This document shows positions 21,149 to 47,238 of a stretch of DNA of 56,386 nucleotides, in pieces. A program made the position numbers and the translations under genes. Where the stretch lies: positions 13,500 to 69,885 of the forward strand of contig NZ_MKSM01000003.1 of assembly GCF_001897285.1 (NCBI RefSeq), given 5' to 3'. The notes beneath the pieces were generated by a model that was given only the letters and a program-made list of their open reading frames with translations, had not been told where the DNA came from and did no database searches. This DNA is from Nitrobacter sp. 62-23 (GTDB lineage: Bacteria > Pseudomonadota > Alphaproteobacteria > Rhizobiales > Xanthobacteraceae). Numbering within the stretch: position 1 is the stretch's first letter; each line of letters begins with the position of its first letter.

Positions 21149-22750
21149 TCAGATCGGCACGCTTTGCGGCCGCTTCCAGCGCACCCATGTTGCGACGATC
21201 AGCCGGGTCACCTCGAATGCGGTGAACACCGTGGTGATGATGCCGATGCCGAGCGTCACGGCGAAGCCGCGCACCGGGCCGGTGCCGATATAGAACAGCA
21301 CCGCTGCGGCGATGAACGTCGTGATGTTGGAATCCAGGATCGTCGCCAGCGCGCGTTTGAAGCCGGCGTCGATCGCCGAAATCGCGGTGCGGCCGCCGCG
21401 AAGTTCCTCTCGGATGCGCTCATAGATCAGCACGTTGGAATCGACGGCGATGCCAACCGTGAGCACGATGCCGGCGATGCCGGGCAGCGTCAGCGTCGCG
21501 TTCAATAACGACAGCACGCCGAAAATCATGGCGACGTTGATGGCGACGGCGATATTCGCAAACACCCCGAACAGCCGGTAGGTCAGCAACATGAACAGGA
21601 TGACCATGATCGAACCGACATAGGCGGCAAGCTCGCCTTTTTCGATCGAATCTTGTCCGAGGCCGGGACCGACGGTGCGTTCCTCGATGATGGTCAGCGG
21701 CGCCGGCAGCGCGCCGGCGCGCAGCAGGATCGCAAGGTCGTTGGCCTCCTGCACCGTGAAATTCCCCGAAATCTGGCCGGAGCCGCCGGTGATCGGTTCG
21801 CGGATGACGGGTGCGGAGATCACCTCGTTGTCGAGGATGATGGCGAATGGCTGTCCGACGTTTTCCGACGTCGCCTGCGCGAACTTGCGCGCGCCGTTGC
21901 TGTTGAACCGGAAGGTCACGATCGGCTCGCTGGTGCGCGAATCGAATCCGGGCTGCGCGTCGATCAGGTCGCCGCCGGAGACGAGCACCTGCTTCTTGAC
22001 GACGTAAGGCGTCTTGGGCGCCTGCGAACTCATCAGCACTTCGGAATCGGCGGGCACCCGGCCTTGCAGGGCCTGTTCGGGCGACACGCTCGAATCGACC
22101 ATGCGGAAGTCCATCTTGGCGGTCTTGCCGAGAATTTCCTTCAGCCGCGTCGGGTCCTGCAGTCCCGGCACCTGCACCAGAATGCGATCGGCGCCCTGGC
22201 GCTGGATCAGCGGTTCGACCGTGCCGAGTTCGTTGACGCGCTTCTCGATGATCTGGATCGACTGCTCGACCGACTGGCGGATGCGGTCGGTGATCGCAGC
22301 CTGCGGGACCGTGAGGCGGATCACCCCGCCTTCAGCACTACTGATTTCAAGGCTGCGCTGACCGCTGGAGCCGAGCAGGCCACCTAGCGGTTGCGACAGC
22401 TCGCGCAACTTGCCAAGCGCGGTCTGGAATTCATCCTCCTTGCTGATGCGCACCTCGACAGCGCCGTTCTTCACGGCAAGGCCGGTATAGGCGATCCGCG
22501 CGTCCCGCAGCGCCTTGCGTGCGTCGTCGCGGACCTGATCGAGTTTCTCTTTCTTGACGTAGTTGGAATCGACCTCGAGCAGCAGATAGGAGCCGCCCTG
22601 AAGATCGAGCCCGAGCACGAGGTGGCGCTGCGCCCATTTCGGCCAGGTCTTGACCTGCGCCTCCGGAAAGAAATTCGGCACGGCGCATAGGCAGACCAGG
22701 AGGGCGGTCAAGACGATCGCCAGCGCTTTCCACCGCGTGAAGTACAGCAT
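21149..22750 (-). CDS. secD: Protein translocase subunit SecD
   Basis: A 533-residue RND-like export component. An N-terminal membrane segment is followed by the LVLGLDLQGGSYLLLEVD signature, a large periplasmic P1 region (about 50-345) and five C-terminal membrane segments carrying GIVLTVGIAVDSNVLIYERI and ITTFIAAAVLFYIGTGPVRG. The length is normal for alphaproteobacteria. It is directly downstream of yajC (12 bp) and upstream of secF (16 bp), forming a yajC-secD-secF operon. Confidence 0.98.
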   Translation of the reverse strand: MLYFTRWKALAIVLTALLVCLCAVPNFFPEAQVKTWPKWAQRHLVLGLDLQGGSYLLLEVDSNYVKKEKLDQVRDDARKALRDARIAYTGLAVKNGAVEVRISKEDEFQTALGKLRELSQPLGGLLGSSGQRSLEISSAEGGVIRLTVPQAAITDRIRQSVEQSIQIIEKRVNELGTVEPLIQRQGADRILVQVPGLQDPTRLKEILGKTAKMDFRMVDSSVSPEQALQGRVPADSEVLMSSQAPKTPYVVKKQVLVSGGDLIDAQPGFDSRTSEPIVTFRFNSNGARKFAQATSENVGQPFAIILDNEVISAPVIREPITGGSGQISGNFTVQEANDLAILLRAGALPAPLTIIEERTVGPGLGQDSIEKGELAAYVGSIMVILFMLLTYRLFGVFANIAVAINVAMIFGVLSLLNATLTLPGIAGIVLTVGIAVDSNVLIYERIREELRGGRTAISAIDAGFKRALATILDSNITTFIAAAVLFYIGTGPVRGFAVTLGIGIITTVFTAFEVTRLIVATWVRWKRPQSVPI

Positions 22751-22762
22751 CGAGATAACCCG

Positions 22763-27786: not shown

Positions 27787-28554
27787 CTACTTCAAGGCCG
27801 TCGTCAGAACCTTGAGGAACACATCGTCGGTGCGATCCAGCCGCAACGGCGTCACCGAGACACATCGCGACGCGATCGCCGCGAGATCGGTCCCTGCCGC
27901 CGGGGTATCCGCGGCGTCGGCCTTCTCGAATCCGATCCAGAAATACGGGTTGCCGCGGCCGTCGCGGCGTTCAACGATCTTGAGAAAGCCGAGATTGCGC
28001 TTGCCCATCCGCGTCACCAGCACCCCCGCCACATCCTGCGGCGCGCAGGCCGGAAAATTGACATTGACCACCGTGTTTTTGGGAATGCCGGCGTCGATCA
28101 CCTTGCGCAGAATCTGCGGCCCGAACGTGAGCGCGGTTTCCCATACCGGCCTGTCGCCGGTCTCCATGCTGAATTCCTGCGACAGCGCGAACGACGGCAG
28201 TCCAAGCATCGTGCCCTCAAGCGCGCCCGCGATGGTGCCGGAATAAACCACGTCCTCAGCGACGTTGCGGCCCCGATTGACACCGGACAGCACGAGATCG
28301 GGCCCCTTTTTACCGAGAATGTGCCGCGATCCCATGATCACGCAATCGGTCGGCGTGCCCTTCACCGCGAAATGGCGCGGTCCGATTTCGCGCAGCCGCA
28401 GCGGATCGTTGAGCGACAGCGAATGCGAGACGCCGGACTGATCGTGCTCCGGCGCGACTACCCAGACATCGTCCGACAGCTCATTTGCGATCTGCTCGAT
28501 GATCTCAAGGCCCGGCGCGTTGATGCCGTCGTCGTTAGTACAGAGGATTCGCAT
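27787..28554 (-). CDS. surE: 5'/3'-nucleotidase SurE
   Basis: A 255-residue metal-dependent nucleoside monophosphatase. It starts [20 protein letters not shown] (metal-binding Asp8/Asp9) and contains [37 protein letters not shown] and VVNVNFPA. It belongs to the surE-pcm-nlpD block of the stress and stationary phase. A chloride channel gene lies between it and serS upstream, with the divergent short peptide gene in the gap. Confidence 0.97.
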
Positions 28555-28777
28555 TCGTGAGGTTGCCTTTTCCGGCCTTTGATCCCCGAGTTGGTATCAA
28601 AGTTGCCGCACCGGGTGAGGAGCTTCGGAATCCGGACGCGAGCGCCGTTCGGACACCTCTTATCCGGCCCGGCCAAACCTTGCAAACCTGACTTTCCACC
28701 CTGGCCTGCGGACTTTTACGACGAGCGTGATGCATCTCACATCATCCTCAAACCGGAGCGTGTACCCCTGATGCGAC

Positions 28778-29059: not shown

Positions 29060-30391
29060 TCACTGCGCGTTTCCGGACGCACAAGCGTTGTCCGCGCGGG
29101 CGCGTTGCAAGAACCCCTTGGCCAGCGCGTGGTAGACGCCTTCCTTGCAGACCAGCCGCGAGCTGCCATAGGCAATCAGCGCTGCCGCCATCAGCGGCAC
29201 CACCATGGCGTGATTATCGGTCATTTCCGTCACGATCACGAAGGCGGTGATCGGCGCCTGCACGACGCCCGCGAAATACGACACCATGCCGAGCAGCAGG
29301 ATTGCACCCATCGGCGTGCCCGGGAAAAAATGAGCCACGTTGGATCCGAGGCCCGCGCCCGCCGCGAGCGAGGGCGAAAAGATCCCGCCGGGAATGCCGC
29401 TCACAGTGGAAAACAGGGTTGCAAGCAGTTTCAGCACCCCGAAACTCTCGGGCAGCGGCGCTTCGCTCTCCAGCGCGTGTTTCACCTGCGCATAGCCTGT
29501 GCCGTAGATCGTGTCGCCGGACAGGTATCCGCACACGGCGACGCCAAGCCCGCACGCAAAAGCAAATGCAAGCGGATGGCGCTTGATGAGCAAGCCGAGC
29601 CGCCCCGGAAGCCCGAACGCCACCAGGATCACAAGACGGCTAAACAATCCGCCAGCAAGGCCGCCGACGACGCCGCAGATCGGCACCGCCAGCCAGTCGA
29701 CGCCGTTGCCGAGCGTGGTCGCGGTGTGGCCGAAGTAGGCGTAATTTCCGACCAGCGCCAGCGATGTCAGCCCGGCAGCGATTACGGTGCCGATGATCAG
29801 GCCGCTGGTGCGCACCTCGAAGGCGCGGCTCATTTCCTCGATGCCGAAGACGATCCCCGCAAGCGGCGTGTTGAAGGCCGCAGCGACGCCTGCGGCCGCT
29901 CCCGCAAGGATCAATCCGGGCTGGCGGCGCGGCGACATCCGCCCGATCGCGAACATGATGGACGCGCCGATCTGCACCGTAGGCCCCTCGCGCCCCACCG
30001 ATGCACCGCAGAGCAGCCCCAGTACGGTGAGAAGGATTTTCCCGACGCCGATACGAAACGAGACCAGCCGGCCGCGCGCCTCATGGTCGCCGAGCTGACG
30101 CGCCGCGATGGCCTGCGGAATGCCGCTGCCTTGCGAGTTCGGAAAGAACCGCAAGGTGAGAAACACCGACAGCACAAATCCGAGCGGGGTGACGACGAAG
30201 GACGCGTAGCGCCATTTTTCGAGCAGGCGCGCGAACAGAAACTGGGCGAGGTCGGAGGCCTGCGTCAGTCCCACCGCCGCCGCGCCGACGGCAACACCGC
30301 CCGCGACGAAAATGACCCGCCGCTGCCACCGGGTCGAGATGACCCGGACCGATCGCAATTGCCGTTCGGTGAGGTGCGGCCTCTGCATCAT
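29060..30391 (-). CDS. CLC family chloride channel / transporter
   Basis: A 443-residue protein with the CLC filter signatures: [26 protein letters not shown] and [16 protein letters not shown], and about ten helices. In the [10 protein letters not shown] motif the gating Glu is present, suggesting H+/Cl- exchange in the ClcA manner. It overlaps the serS stop by 4 bp (ATGA at 30388-30391), so translation is coupled. No CBS domain is present. It is an unusual guest in the serS-surE block. Confidence 0.95.
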
Positions 30392-31845
30392 CCCTCGCGG
30401 CCGATCGCCTTGCGGCCGCCCATGTAAGGCTGCAGCACGTCAGGCACGGCGATGGAGCCGTCGGCCTGCTGGTAGGTCTCCATCACCGCGATCAGCGCGC
30501 GGCCGACCGCGGTGCCGGAGCCGTTCAGCGTATGCACGAAGCGCGGCTTGCCGTCGCTTGCCCGATAGCGGGCGTCCATGCGTCGCGCCTGGAAATCGCC
30601 GCATACCGAGCAGGACGAAATCTCGCGATAGGCGCCCCCCTCACCTTGCCCCGGCATCCAGACCTCGATGTCGTAGGTCTTCTGCGAGGCAAAGCCCATG
30701 TCGCCGGTGCACAGCGTCATCACGCGGTAATGCAGGCCGAGCCGGCGCAGCACCTCCTCGGCACAGGACAACATGCGCTCGTGTTCGTCTTTTGATGCTT
30801 CCGGCGTCGTGATCGACACCAGTTCGACTTTGCTGAACTGATGCTGACGGATCATGCCGCGGGTATCGCGCCCCGCAGCGCCAGCTTCGGCGCGGAAACA
30901 CGGCGTCAGCGCGGTGAAGCGTAGCGGCAGTTCTTTTTCGTCGAGAATGGAGTCGCGGACGAGATTTGTGAGCGGGACTTCGGCGGTGGGGATGAGCCAT
31001 TTACGGGAACTTAGCTCAAGCCGCCTCTGAGCTATAACGCCCGCAAAACGAAGCGCTTTTGCTACTACTCGTGTAGTCGGGCTTTTAGAGTTTGGTGAGA
31101 ATTTTTCCTGATGACCGATCAGTCTTTCTCTGAATTTTCGATACTCAGCCAAAGCCATTTTGGTTGGTTCGGCTCCAAGAACTGAAAACTGATCCTCCCG
31201 AAACTTCGGCAATTGCGCCGTGCCGAACATCGCATCGTTGCGCACCAGGAGCGGCGGATTGACTTCGGTGTAGCCGTGCTCGCCGGTGTGGACGTCGAGA
31301 AAGAACTGACCGATGGCGCGTTCGAGCCGCGCCAGCCCCCGCTTCAGCACGACGAAGCGCGCGCCTGACAGTTTCGCCGCCGCCTCGAAATCCATGTCGC
31401 CGAGCGCGCCGCCGAGATCGTCATGCGGCTTCGGCGCAAAGGCATAGTCGCGCTTCTTGCCGAAGATATGATGCTGCACGTTGCCATGCTCGTCGGCACC
31501 CTCGGGCACGTCGTCGAGTGGCAGGTTTGGAATCTCGGCCAGCGCCTTTTTCAACTCCTCGTCCGCCGTCTTCGCCGCCGCTTCCATGTCGGGCATGGTG
31601 GTCTTGAGTTCGGCGACCTCGGCCATCAGCTTCGCGGCGCGCGCCTCGTCTTTCGCCTTCTTGGCCTCGCCGATCTCTTTCGATGCCGCATTGCGCCGCG
31701 CCTGCGCCTGTTCGGACGCGAGAATGGCCGCGCGGCGCTTCTCGTCGATCGCGAGCAGCGACGCTGCCAAGGGCTCAAGTCCCCGCCGTTTCAGCGCGGC
31801 ATCGAATGCTTGCGGGTTATCGCGGATCGCCTTGATGTCGTGCAT
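30388..31845 (-). CDS. serS: Serine-tRNA ligase with ~60-residue in-frame insertion
   Basis: A 485-residue class II synthetase. The N-terminal coiled coil covers about 30-100 ([20 protein letters not shown]). Motif 1 region is TEVNPPLL near 193, the serine-binding TAEVPLTN about 288-295, motif 2 [20 protein letters not shown] and motif 3 [16 protein letters not shown]. Residues about 221-282, between KFREDQF and WLIPTAEV, have no counterpart in the family, where only a few residues are usual. The inserted DNA (31000-31185) is less GC-rich. Catalytic motifs are all retained, so the enzyme is probably active. The ordinary family length would be about 425-430. Confidence 0.95.
31000..31185 (-). 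other. Low-GC in-frame insertion inside serS
   Basis: This encodes residues about 221-282 of SerS (from [10 protein letters not shown] to ELSSRK), rich in Arg, Lys and Ala. A hand count of 31081-31140 gives 23 G/C of 60 (38 %), against a higher GC in the flanks. No clear terminal inverted repeats or target duplication was seen; AGCTCA/TGAGCT inverted elements lie near one end. It may be a coding selfish element or a captured fragment. Confidence 0.7.
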
Positions 31846-32003
31846 GAAAGTCAGTCCAAAAGAGAATAAGCGGCGAGAGCAGCGGCATCATGTCCGCGAA
31901 AGCGGGCATCCAGTAACCCGAATGGCCGGAATTGGAAACCGTTGGCAAACGATGACGACGGGAATCGGGGAGATGATAGCAGATGAGTCCGGCTGGGCGG
32001 CCC

Positions 32004-32813
32004 CTACTCCGCCGGGTTTCCCGCCGGCGGCGAGGTGGCCGTCGCGCCGGCCGCCTTGGCGGCTTTTTTCTCGACCATGCCGACGGCGATGATCGAGCCC
32101 TCGTAGAGCAGGAGCAGCGGCAGCGCCAGCGAGGTCTGGCTCAGCACGTCGGGCGGCGTCAGCACCGCCGCGATGACGAAGGCGGCGACGATGAAATAGC
32201 GGCGCTTGTCGCGCAGCATCTTCGAGGTGACGACGCCGATCCGCCCGAGCAGCGTCAGGATCACTGGCAGCTGGAAGGCGATGCCGAAGGCGAAGATCAG
32301 CGACATCGTCAGCGACAGGAATTCGCCGACCTTGGGCAGCAGCTGGATTTGCGCGGTTTCGGGGCCCGACACCTGCTGCATGCCGAGCGAGAAGCGCACG
32401 ATCATCGGCAGCACCACGAAATAGACCACCAGTGCGCCGAGCACGAAGAAAACCGGCGTGGCGATCAGGTACGGCAGGAACGCCTTACGCTCATGTTTGT
32501 AGAGACCCGGCGCCACGAATTTGTAGATCTGCGTCGCCACGATCGGAAACGAGATAAAGCCCGCGCCGAACAGCGCGAGCTTTAACTGGGTGATGAAGTA
32601 TTCGAGCAGCGCGGTGTAGATGAATTTCGAATTCTCCGGCCCCGCGACCCAGACGAACGGCCATATCAGGATGTTGTAGATCTGCTTGGCGAAGAAGAAA
32701 CAGAAAATGAAAGCGATGCCGAAGCCGACCAGCGCCTTGATCAGCCGCGAGCGCAGCTCGATCAGGTGATCCATCAGCGGGGCCTTGCTGGCCTCGATGT
32801 CTTCGGCGCTCAT
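32004..32813 (-). CDS. tatC: Sec-independent protein translocase TatC
   Basis: A 269-residue multi-spanning core of the twin-arginine translocase that binds RR signal peptides. [20 protein letters not shown] is the conserved N-terminal motif, with [31 protein letters not shown] and [20 protein letters not shown]. Six membrane segments are visible and an Ala/Gly/Pro-rich tail ends the protein. It overlaps tatB by 4 bp (32810-32813). serS is 158 bp downstream. Confidence 0.98.
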
Positions 32814-33331
32814 GACGCTTTGACGTCCTTGACCGCTTCGTCGTTACCGGCCTCATGCGGCGTCTCATGCCGGACCGGCTCTGGCCTGGCAGGAACGCTC
32901 TGAAAATTGCGCGTGATCGCCAACGGCTCGGATGGAGGCGCCACGGCATCGGCTGTCGTAGAAGGCTCAGGCGTCGCAGCCTCCGGCATTGCCGCTGCGC
33001 TTGCGGAAGCGCCATCGACGGATGGGGCAGGCTTATCAAAATCCTCAAGCCTCGGCGGCTCGCCGAGCGTTTCCGTCAGCCTGGTCATCAGCTTGCCGCT
33101 GGTTAGTCCGCTGGTGGCGTCCCGCACCTCGTCGAAGGATTTTTTCAGGTCGGCCATTTCGGCCTCGCGCATCGCTTCGTTGAACTGGCCCTGGAATTCG
33201 GCGGCCATCCTGCGCGCCTTGCCCATCCACTGTCCGATCGTGCGCAACACCCCGGGCAGTTCCTTCGGGCCGATGGCGATCAGCGCGACGACCGCGATGA
33301 CGACCAGTTCACTCCACCCGATGTCGAACAT
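32810..33331 (-). CDS. tatB: Sec-independent protein translocase TatB
   Basis: A 173-residue Tat receptor-complex component. The single-pass start [20 protein letters not shown] is followed by [20 protein letters not shown] and an amphipathic helix ([20 protein letters not shown]). The Pro/Ala/Ser-rich C-terminus is variable. It lies between tatA and tatC in the same direction, with a 4-bp overlap with tatC. Confidence 0.97.
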
Positions 33332-33434
33332 GAAATTTTCCGCTCACGCGAGGGATTAACGCGCGTTGACAGCCCGGCCGCCTCGCAGTCCTCGCATTAT
33401 TGTCGCGGATTCGCGACCTTTCAGCCGTGGCGCG

Positions 33435-46677: not shown

Positions 46678-47238
46678 ATGATTAGAATCCTTGGCCTCGT
46701 CGCCGCGCTGATGTTCGCGATCCCCGCTTTCGCTCAACCCCTGCCCGCCAACATCGACAAGCAGAATGCGATCGTGATCGACACCACGAAGGGTCGCATC
46801 GTCATCGAGTTGCGGACCGACATCGCGCCAAAGCACGCCGAGCGCATCAAGCAACTCGCCCGTGACGGCTTCTATAACAACGTTCCGTTCCATCGCGTCA
46901 TGGACGGCTTCATGGCGCAGACCGGGGACGGCCAGAATTTCAACGGCACCGGCGGCTCAAAATATCCGAACCTCAAGGCCGAGTTCTCCAATGTGCCGTT
47001 CAAGCGCGGCGTGGTCGGAATGGCGCGCGCGGCAAGTCCGGACTCGGCGAACTCGCAGTTCTTCATCGCCTTTGCCGACGCCTCCTTCCTCAACGGCAAA
47101 TACACCGTGGTCGGCAATGTGGTGTCCGGCATGGACGTGGTCGACCAGTTGAAGAAGGCACCGGCCGGTTCGGCCAGCGGCACCGTCACCGATCCGGACA
47201 AGATGCTGAAGGTTCAGGTCGCCTCCGACATCAAGTGA
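46678..47238 (+). CDS. Peptidyl-prolyl cis-trans isomerase, cyclophilin type, exported
   Basis: A 186-residue cyclophilin with a signal peptide (MIRILGLVAALMFAIPAFAQ), so it is periplasmic. VPFHRVMDGFMAQTGDGQNF and PDSANSQFFIAFADASFLNG are typical active-site regions (catalytic Arg in FHRV, and QFFI). It probably assists folding of exported proteins. It is 32 bp after coaD and 9 bp before the next small gene. Confidence 0.96.
   Translation: MIRILGLVAALMFAIPAFAQPLPANIDKQNAIVIDTTKGRIVIELRTDIAPKHAERIKQLARDGFYNNVPFHRVMDGFMAQTGDGQNFNGTGGSKYPNLKAEFSNVPFKRGVVGMARAASPDSANSQFFIAFADASFLNGKYTVVGNVVSGMDVVDQLKKAPAGSASGTVTDPDKMLKVQVASDIK

Follow-up and report, generated by a model that had tools for sequence, protein, structure and literature searches.

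The serine-tRNA ligase of a Nitrobacter-like genome (gene product SerS, enzyme SerRS) contains a 62-residue insert which occupies a fixed site of the enzyme and is not an element. The sequence, the length and, according to structure predictions of moderate confidence, the fold of the insert vary among species, the insert types are reassorted among species, and purifying selection acts within types wherever it can be measured. The explanation favoured here, tentatively and at somewhat less than an even chance, is an exchangeable accessory domain of SerRS that would be kept diverse by negative frequency-dependent selection, most likely against a putative intracellular antagonist.

In the window, by which the whole analysed stretch of 56,386 nucleotides is meant, serS lies on the minus strand at 30388..31845 and encodes a bacterial-type serine-tRNA ligase of 485 aa in which the N-terminal arm and the class II core are present. 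Both Pfam SerRS domains score far over their cut-offs. An earlier sequence-only reading was right about the presence, length and frame of an insert. The in-frame insert (residues 221-282, 31000..31185, minus strand) had been placed by that reading with exact coordinates. It separates a conserved left shoulder, LPKFREDQF (residues 212-220, 31186..31212), from a right shoulder, WLIPTAEV (residues 283-290, 30976..30999), both on the minus strand and defined by the congener alignment; the right shoulder is the serine-binding TxE motif. The same reading held that only few residues are usual at this position, and 6-11 are indeed found in the 27 parsable loci of 30 from a class-wide sample, so that about 50-56 residues of the window's insert are extra. 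It was also right about the odd base composition, the GC content being 0.46 in the insert and 0.65 in the rest of serS, and 0.34 against 0.81 at third codon positions. By itself this composition is weak evidence, as 1.2% of the 186-nt windows across the 56-kb stretch have a GC content equal to or below that of the insert, in 8 places; the evidence becomes strong through the comparison with relatives. A putative ClC-like chloride channel gene, named by reading, lies beside serS at 29060-30391 with its start overlapping the serS stop, and is matched in 4 of 7 congener stretches (not in L320, L321 and L323). Directly upstream of serS, at 31890-31930, stands a REP-like hairpin core, GCGAAAGCGGGCATCCAGTA, with one more core match at 46723.

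All seven complete serS genes of congeners (L010-L016) have an in-frame insert of 52-76 residues at the same place; an eighth gene (L017) is cut and is not among the seven. Most of these inserts have unrelated sequences, those of L010 and L013 being alike, and the remaining protein is conserved. The inserts of the window and of L010, for instance, have 7% in common, with flanks of 92% DNA identity. The congener L010 (G002) agrees in insert and SerS length with Nitrobacter sp. 62-13 (L041), which makes a Nitrobacter the most likely organism. An assembly artefact, which had been raised as a possibility from the window alone, is unlikely, since inserts that keep the frame occupy the same codon position in seven further members of the genus, in two of these on contigs longer than 3 Mb. 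The other possibility raised, that close relatives share the same loop at normal base composition, holds in part: the congeners do all carry a loop there, but its sequence is unrelated and it is likewise low in GC.

Among 173 distinct SerS proteins (185 parsed genes, from the family and from named genomes) the site is shorter than 15 residues in 19, 15-29 residues long in 30 and at least 30 residues long in 124; 100 of the 173 were chosen for matching the window protein best over its full length, which is why all of them have at least 30 residues, and the other 73, from named genomes, divide into 19, 30 and 24. The class of 15-29 residues consists mostly of the WAIKGELL..RL form of Bradyrhizobium. 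SerS was matched in 132 of the 134 genomes of the class-wide sample, where long inserts (44-74 residues) occur in six genomes beyond the own one (G491, G453, G393, G510, G494 and G442). A family of another order of the class (f5) gave a SerS match in 89 of the 96 genomes searched; its best-matching genes have 6-10 residues at the site (29 parsable of 30), and inserts of 32-98 residues are found in its genus g51, in 19 genes parsed out of 20 that were fetched on purpose for their split matches. Unparsed loci were left out of the counts (L017, L051, L055, L058, L063, L128 and L186 of L009-L200; further L204, L212, L223, L238 and L239, and L314 and L328). As many lineages live with 6-24 residues at this position, the insert is unnecessary for survival.

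Clustering at E < 1e-3 resolves 123 distinct inserts of at least 30 residues into 75 clusters, with the window's insert as a singleton. When other families are included, 148 distinct inserts of this size fall into 97 types, 79 of them seen once (Chao1 about 405), and the pool, with 97 types observed, may comprise hundreds of interchangeable domains. Counted from 30 aa upwards, the 148 inserts are 31-98 aa long with a median of 56. Insert identity is below 0.35 in 17 of the 19 pairs with a flank DNA identity of at least 0.90 (the other 2 lie above 0.5), in 62 of 63 pairs at 0.87-0.90 and in 84 of 91 pairs at 0.84-0.87; the mean for random insert pairs is 0.22. The 15-29-residue form provides the control, with a median insert identity of 0.81 and a minimum of 0.50 in 239 pairs at a flank identity above 0.84.

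On a FastTree phylogeny of the flanks, the 15 multi-member types (63 genes) show 37 changes, compared with a possible minimum of 14 and with 41-51 in 100 shuffles. As 37 lies under all 100 shuffles, types retain some tie to descent, though little, and a gene has its type in common with its nearest flank neighbour in only 15 of 123 cases. L010 and L147, from different genera, belong to one type (74%), while L010 and its congener L013 reach 44%. Five insert pairs connect f5 with the main set at E < 1e-3 and 26-38% identity (L121-L234, L118-L336, L121-L333, L155-L333 and L088-L233), and the flanks compared between f5 and the main set group by family (0.71-0.72 inside a family, 0.60-0.62 between the two).

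The DNA beside the insert bears on how types move. The 17 close pairs that differ in type have a synonymous difference of 0.25 within 25 codons of the insert versus 0.13 beyond 150 codons and a near/far ratio of 1.65, compared with 1.03 in 300 pairs at 0.80-0.85 and 1.13 in the two close same-type pairs. Near divergence exceeds far divergence in 17 of 21 disjoint pairs versus 172 of 300 distant pairs. In the window, the insert plus 75 codons per side, where closely related genes, among them the window gene L009 when paired with L010, show raised synonymous divergence, corresponds to 30775..31410 on the minus strand. Such a rise toward the insert in close relatives is as expected for import by homologous recombination via the conserved serS flanks; linked selection would give the same gradient. 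The two marks of balancing selection, types across species boundaries and raised neutral divergence beside the site, were found between species, each represented by one genome, and not within one population, and recombination in the absence of selection would produce such a gradient too. Four-fold sites flanking the insert show no extra conservation, so that no enzyme recognition site is suggested there.

Of 18 pairs within types, 10 allowed dN/dS to be computed, with values from 0 to 0.29; synonymous sites are saturated in the other 8, whose nonsynonymous differences do not exceed 0.31 per site. A 51-residue insert is even identical in L098 and L100, at a dS of 0.76. Since none of the dN/dS values computed within types is above 1, the inserts diversify by replacement and not by point change. 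GC at the three codon positions is 0.62, 0.40 and 0.54 in the inserts versus 0.66, 0.42 and 0.82 in the main-set flanks, which means that it is mainly the third positions that are low in GC and that the amino-acid level is normal. Total GC is under the flank value in 139 of 148 inserts and third-position GC in 118 of 123. The inserts are poor in Cys (0.1% vs 1.3%) and in Gly/Pro (8% vs 12%). The base of the hairpin is carefully packed, as the Trp before LIPTAE is replaced by Gly only together with Trp- or Phe-initial inserts: this is the start of the hairpin segment in 40 of the 40 proteins with Gly, many of which are related Bradyrhizobium, and Gly is found in none of the 174 proteins with another hairpin start.

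For the window's insert, AlphaFold2 with 39 SerRS sequences predicts a short beta base (residues 221-223 and 281-284) and two helices, residues 229-248 (31102..31161, minus strand) and 256-280 (31006..31080, minus strand), at a pLDDT of about 75. The insert of L118, a type with a distant relative in f5, is predicted with strands at 234-241, 247-251 and 258-262 and a helix at 267-273 (pLDDT about 60-79). More than one fold thus seems to be represented in the pool, a helical hairpin here and an alpha/beta arrangement in L118, both models being of moderate confidence. Residue 281 of the window SerS aligns with residue 265 of human SerRS, and the insert site adjoins vertebrate insertion II.

A hypervariable internal window is present in 4 of 108 non-overlapping conserved ORFs (about 420 kb, two congeners), one of which is serS; the other three look like low-complexity, antisense or surface-protein frames, which would make serS the sole housekeeping gene among them. 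In the 20 kb around serS, the lowest 40-residue identity of SerS with the seven congeners is 0.05-0.17. The long neighbouring ORFs, in a comparison where antisense and alternative frames stand among genes, are far more even (21152-22762, 0.78-0.88; 27790-28596, 0.70-0.90; 32007-32843, 0.72-0.93), and the small ORF 32813-33343 is less even, with a lowest-window identity of 0.23-0.45.

The median lowest window in the genus is 0.12 for SerRS (28 pairs), 0.11 for HisRS (10 pairs) and 0.17 for AspRS (21 pairs). Evenness is seen in ThrRS (36 pairs, 0.72), ProRS (21 pairs, 0.85) and LeuRS (21 pairs, 0.78, some of the frames being cut). ValRS (28 pairs, 0.42) varies only at the N-terminus among the stretches listed, and in IleRS (21 pairs, 0.30) 3 of 7 genes contain inserts at scattered places, with REP-like DNA in two. 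The control ORFs are open frames, in which untranslated N-terminal stretches depress some windows (ThrRS minimum 0.23, ValRS 0.20). Names were given by NCBIfam to one member per group (L435 ValRS, L444 IleRS, L456 LeuRS, L258 ThrRS, L276 ProRS, L283 HisRS, L417 and L422 AspRS, L425 EpmA), and in the EpmA control 10 of 28 pairs were left out on account of a wrong frame in two loci. REP-like DNA is read in frame as HLPLEGGGRRAAAGGG in the IleRS of congeners L449 and L451, and it is also present inside the SerS insert of L158 (HSRESGNP..SPLARGRAEAG); some coding inserts of this group do derive from elements, which the insert of the window does not.

In HisRS, the segment after GDFTKGAGL differs between species as much as the SerRS insert does, with 2 of 5 sharing a type; it lies in the insertion domain, which adjoins the acceptor stem. 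The 57 HisRS segments from two families form 29 clusters, of which one has 24 members and looks like the ancestral form, and 24 are single. They stem from loci L283-L287, L346-L375 and L465-L494, with the unparsed L347, L467, L469, L478 and L479 left out and with L285 and L363, which are the same gene, both within the 57. The AspRS of the own genome (L417, G000:C100) has a one-off 57-residue insert with a GC3 of 0.56 vs 0.84 in the flanks, where six congeners have 6-10 residues, and the AspRS of G005 (L422) has a different insert of 43 aa at a second site, with flanks that are also low in GC3 (0.58). The insert pools of SerRS and HisRS do not mix: insert types common to SerRS and HisRS/AspRS were sought with 48 queries, and the best match (E 0.007 over 14 residues) was taken as chance.

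In the model preferred here, the SerRS of the Nitrobacter-like genome and of many relatives would bear an accessory domain that can be exchanged, placed on a surface hairpin which lies between motif 1 and the TxE loop. New types would enter by homologous recombination via the conserved serS flanks, and negative frequency-dependent selection would then maintain their diversity. The domain may reach close to the active-site mouth and serve there as a shield or decoy that can be changed, blocking the docking of an intracellular protein antagonist on SerRS; this is the best guess because the site is near the active site and yet human insertion II is described as dispensable for catalysis. An antagonist borne by phages, plasmids or competitors would adapt to common types, from which rare types would gain, and HisRS and sporadically AspRS would be parallel targets. 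With less confidence, a wider claim is possible, namely that a hypothetical class of intracellular antagonists has SerRS, HisRS and occasionally AspRS as its front-line targets in many Alphaproteobacteria and that recombined shield domains protect these enzymes, which would amount to an MHC-like polymorphism in the translation machinery.

Searches for the insert sequences elsewhere lead back to SerS. Profiles of two types (A2 and A4), run against 178 genomes, gave 13 matches at E < 1e-7, all in SerS by their positions; 10 of these are genes used to build the profiles and 3 are new (G039, G019 and G022). The same profiles gave 4 weak matches outside SerS (E 0.002-0.006) that were taken as chance, two of which (L245 and L246) lie in the same small helical ORF of two genomes of one genus. 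The window's insert has no match in PDB sequences, Pfam, PHROGs, PADLOC, NCBIfam or phage records. No antagonist came to light either: three single inserts have no match in 50,697 phage records, and one nucleotide search of plasmids returned only chance-like matches. Known domains were sought in 82 insert representatives by hmmscan in Pfam, PHROGs, PADLOC and NCBIfam, and the isolated matches (best E 0.0004, PADLOC) were taken as chance.

SerRS itself is matched by 30 phage records, with a coverage of at least 80% in 21, and by one IMG/VR contig; the two enzymes inspected, L257 and L496, have a short hairpin at the site. Seven records of Brevundimonas phages (H11-H13 and H18-H21) encode a seryl-tRNA synthetase, in L496 with a GcrA-like gene nearby, and alphaproteobacterial phages carrying this enzyme have a stake in SerRS. 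An E. coli plasmid record (L495, NZ_CP148399.1) holds ftsK-lolA-rarA-serS-dmsABC; it was rejected as a case of plasmid-borne serS, the gene order being read as chromosomal DNA filed as plasmid.

Two main rivals have to be weighed. In the first, each type binds a type-specific host partner, such as an enzyme, a regulator or an antitoxin-like protein, and changes together with it. This would agree with the purifying selection within types and with the domain-like composition, and in human SerRS a non-canonical role in DNA binding is reported to depend partly on insertion II, which adjoins the site of the bacterial insert (PMC10817482). But 97 types in 148 inserts would need many partners, which fits this reading least, and the raised divergence is gone within about 75-125 codons, so that neighbouring genes are not carried along as a rule; we consider a partner domain unlikely. 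In the second, the hairpin is a surface loop that takes almost any folded stretch, with gain, drift and replacement near-neutral and recombination merely frequent. Lineages with 6-24 residues exist, and the negligible role of human insertion II in aminoacylation, as far as described in PMC10817482, points the same way. What mere tolerance accounts for worst are the dN/dS values of 0 to 0.29 within types and the 15-29-residue Bradyrhizobium form, which shows no turnover. Moreover, a median length of 56 is maintained and not shrinking, Cys is very low and Gly/Pro low, and such turnover is rare among the 108 ORFs yet recurs in HisRS, all of which makes this explanation improbable.

A co-evolution with tRNA-Ser, in which the insert would read the variable part of this tRNA, is very improbable. 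The HisRS segment lies in an insertion domain adjoining the acceptor stem, and a role of this kind has been proposed for the variable segments of synthetases as a class (PMC387263), but SerS inserts are wholly different at 94% serS DNA identity, where the tRNAs should barely differ; the two tRNA-Ser genes located are different isoacceptors. Hardly credible at all is a selfish protein-coding mobile element, similar to rickettsial palindromic elements or inteins, to which the sequence-only reading had likened the insert: it is in-frame, low in GC and missing from many relatives, and element-derived coding inserts occur in the genus (IleRS of L449 and L451, SerS insert of L158), but there is one genomic copy, the next best match in the own genome being only 16 nt, neither a palindrome nor a terminal repeat rises above chance level (the longest inverted repeat has 10 nt, at 90%), that reading too having seen no clear terminal repeats, the RNA fold z is -1.34, no insertion-site DNA is conserved, 97 unrelated sequences share the site, and the 13 strong matches of the two profiled types lie inside SerS only. 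An RNA element was rejected on the same fold z and on the lack of an Rfam match up to E 1. An intein was rejected because the insert has 62 aa and no intein model is among the families listed at E <= 0.05 for the 82 insert representatives in Pfam and NCBIfam.

One site in an essential synthetase that has no common sequence in sister species implies a strong selective agent, none being described in the open-access literature searched, where no description of a hypervariable SerRS or HisRS segment in bacteria was found either. Types cross genus boundaries and, by the five weaker matches, order boundaries too. If the preferred shield model is right, an antagonist should bind in a type-dependent way when SerRS is used as bait. 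The acceptance of 97 natural domains at one site (Chao1 about 400) is useful for protein engineering, and phylogenies built on serS or hisS call for caution.

Aminoacyl-tRNA synthetases are regarded as among the most conserved enzymes and are used as phylogenetic markers. The type I restriction specificity subunits have a conserved frame with many unrelated, interchangeable recognition domains that spread by recombination. SerS is similar in its conserved frame with unrelated, exchangeable domains probably spread by recombination, but it is an essential cytoplasmic synthetase without a known recognition task. Rickettsial palindromic elements also sit in-frame in housekeeping genes; they occur in many copies per genome and contain a palindrome with a stable hairpin, whereas the SerS insert has no palindrome, no other genomic copy and one fixed site. 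Inteins have a Hint domain and are longer than about 120 aa. Vertebrate SerRS insertion II (G254-N261), a lineage feature of higher eukaryotes, is described as lying near the active site and as contributing negligibly to aminoacylation (PMC10817482). It lies directly before the same conserved strand as the bacterial insert, but it has only 8 residues, and the likeness is one of position, with no sequence relation claimed. A further parallel is formed by segmentally variable genes (Zheng et al. 2004, PMC387263), in which, by definition, a stretch of 70 aa or more varies between well-conserved regions; the window's insert has 62 aa and the 148 inserts have 31-98 aa, between conserved flanks. Synthetases are discussed there, the word seryl being absent from the main text, and in both cases a conserved housekeeping enzyme has an internal segment which is unalignable between species. 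SerS differs in that its piece turns over between sister species, reassorts among species and is under purifying selection inside its types.
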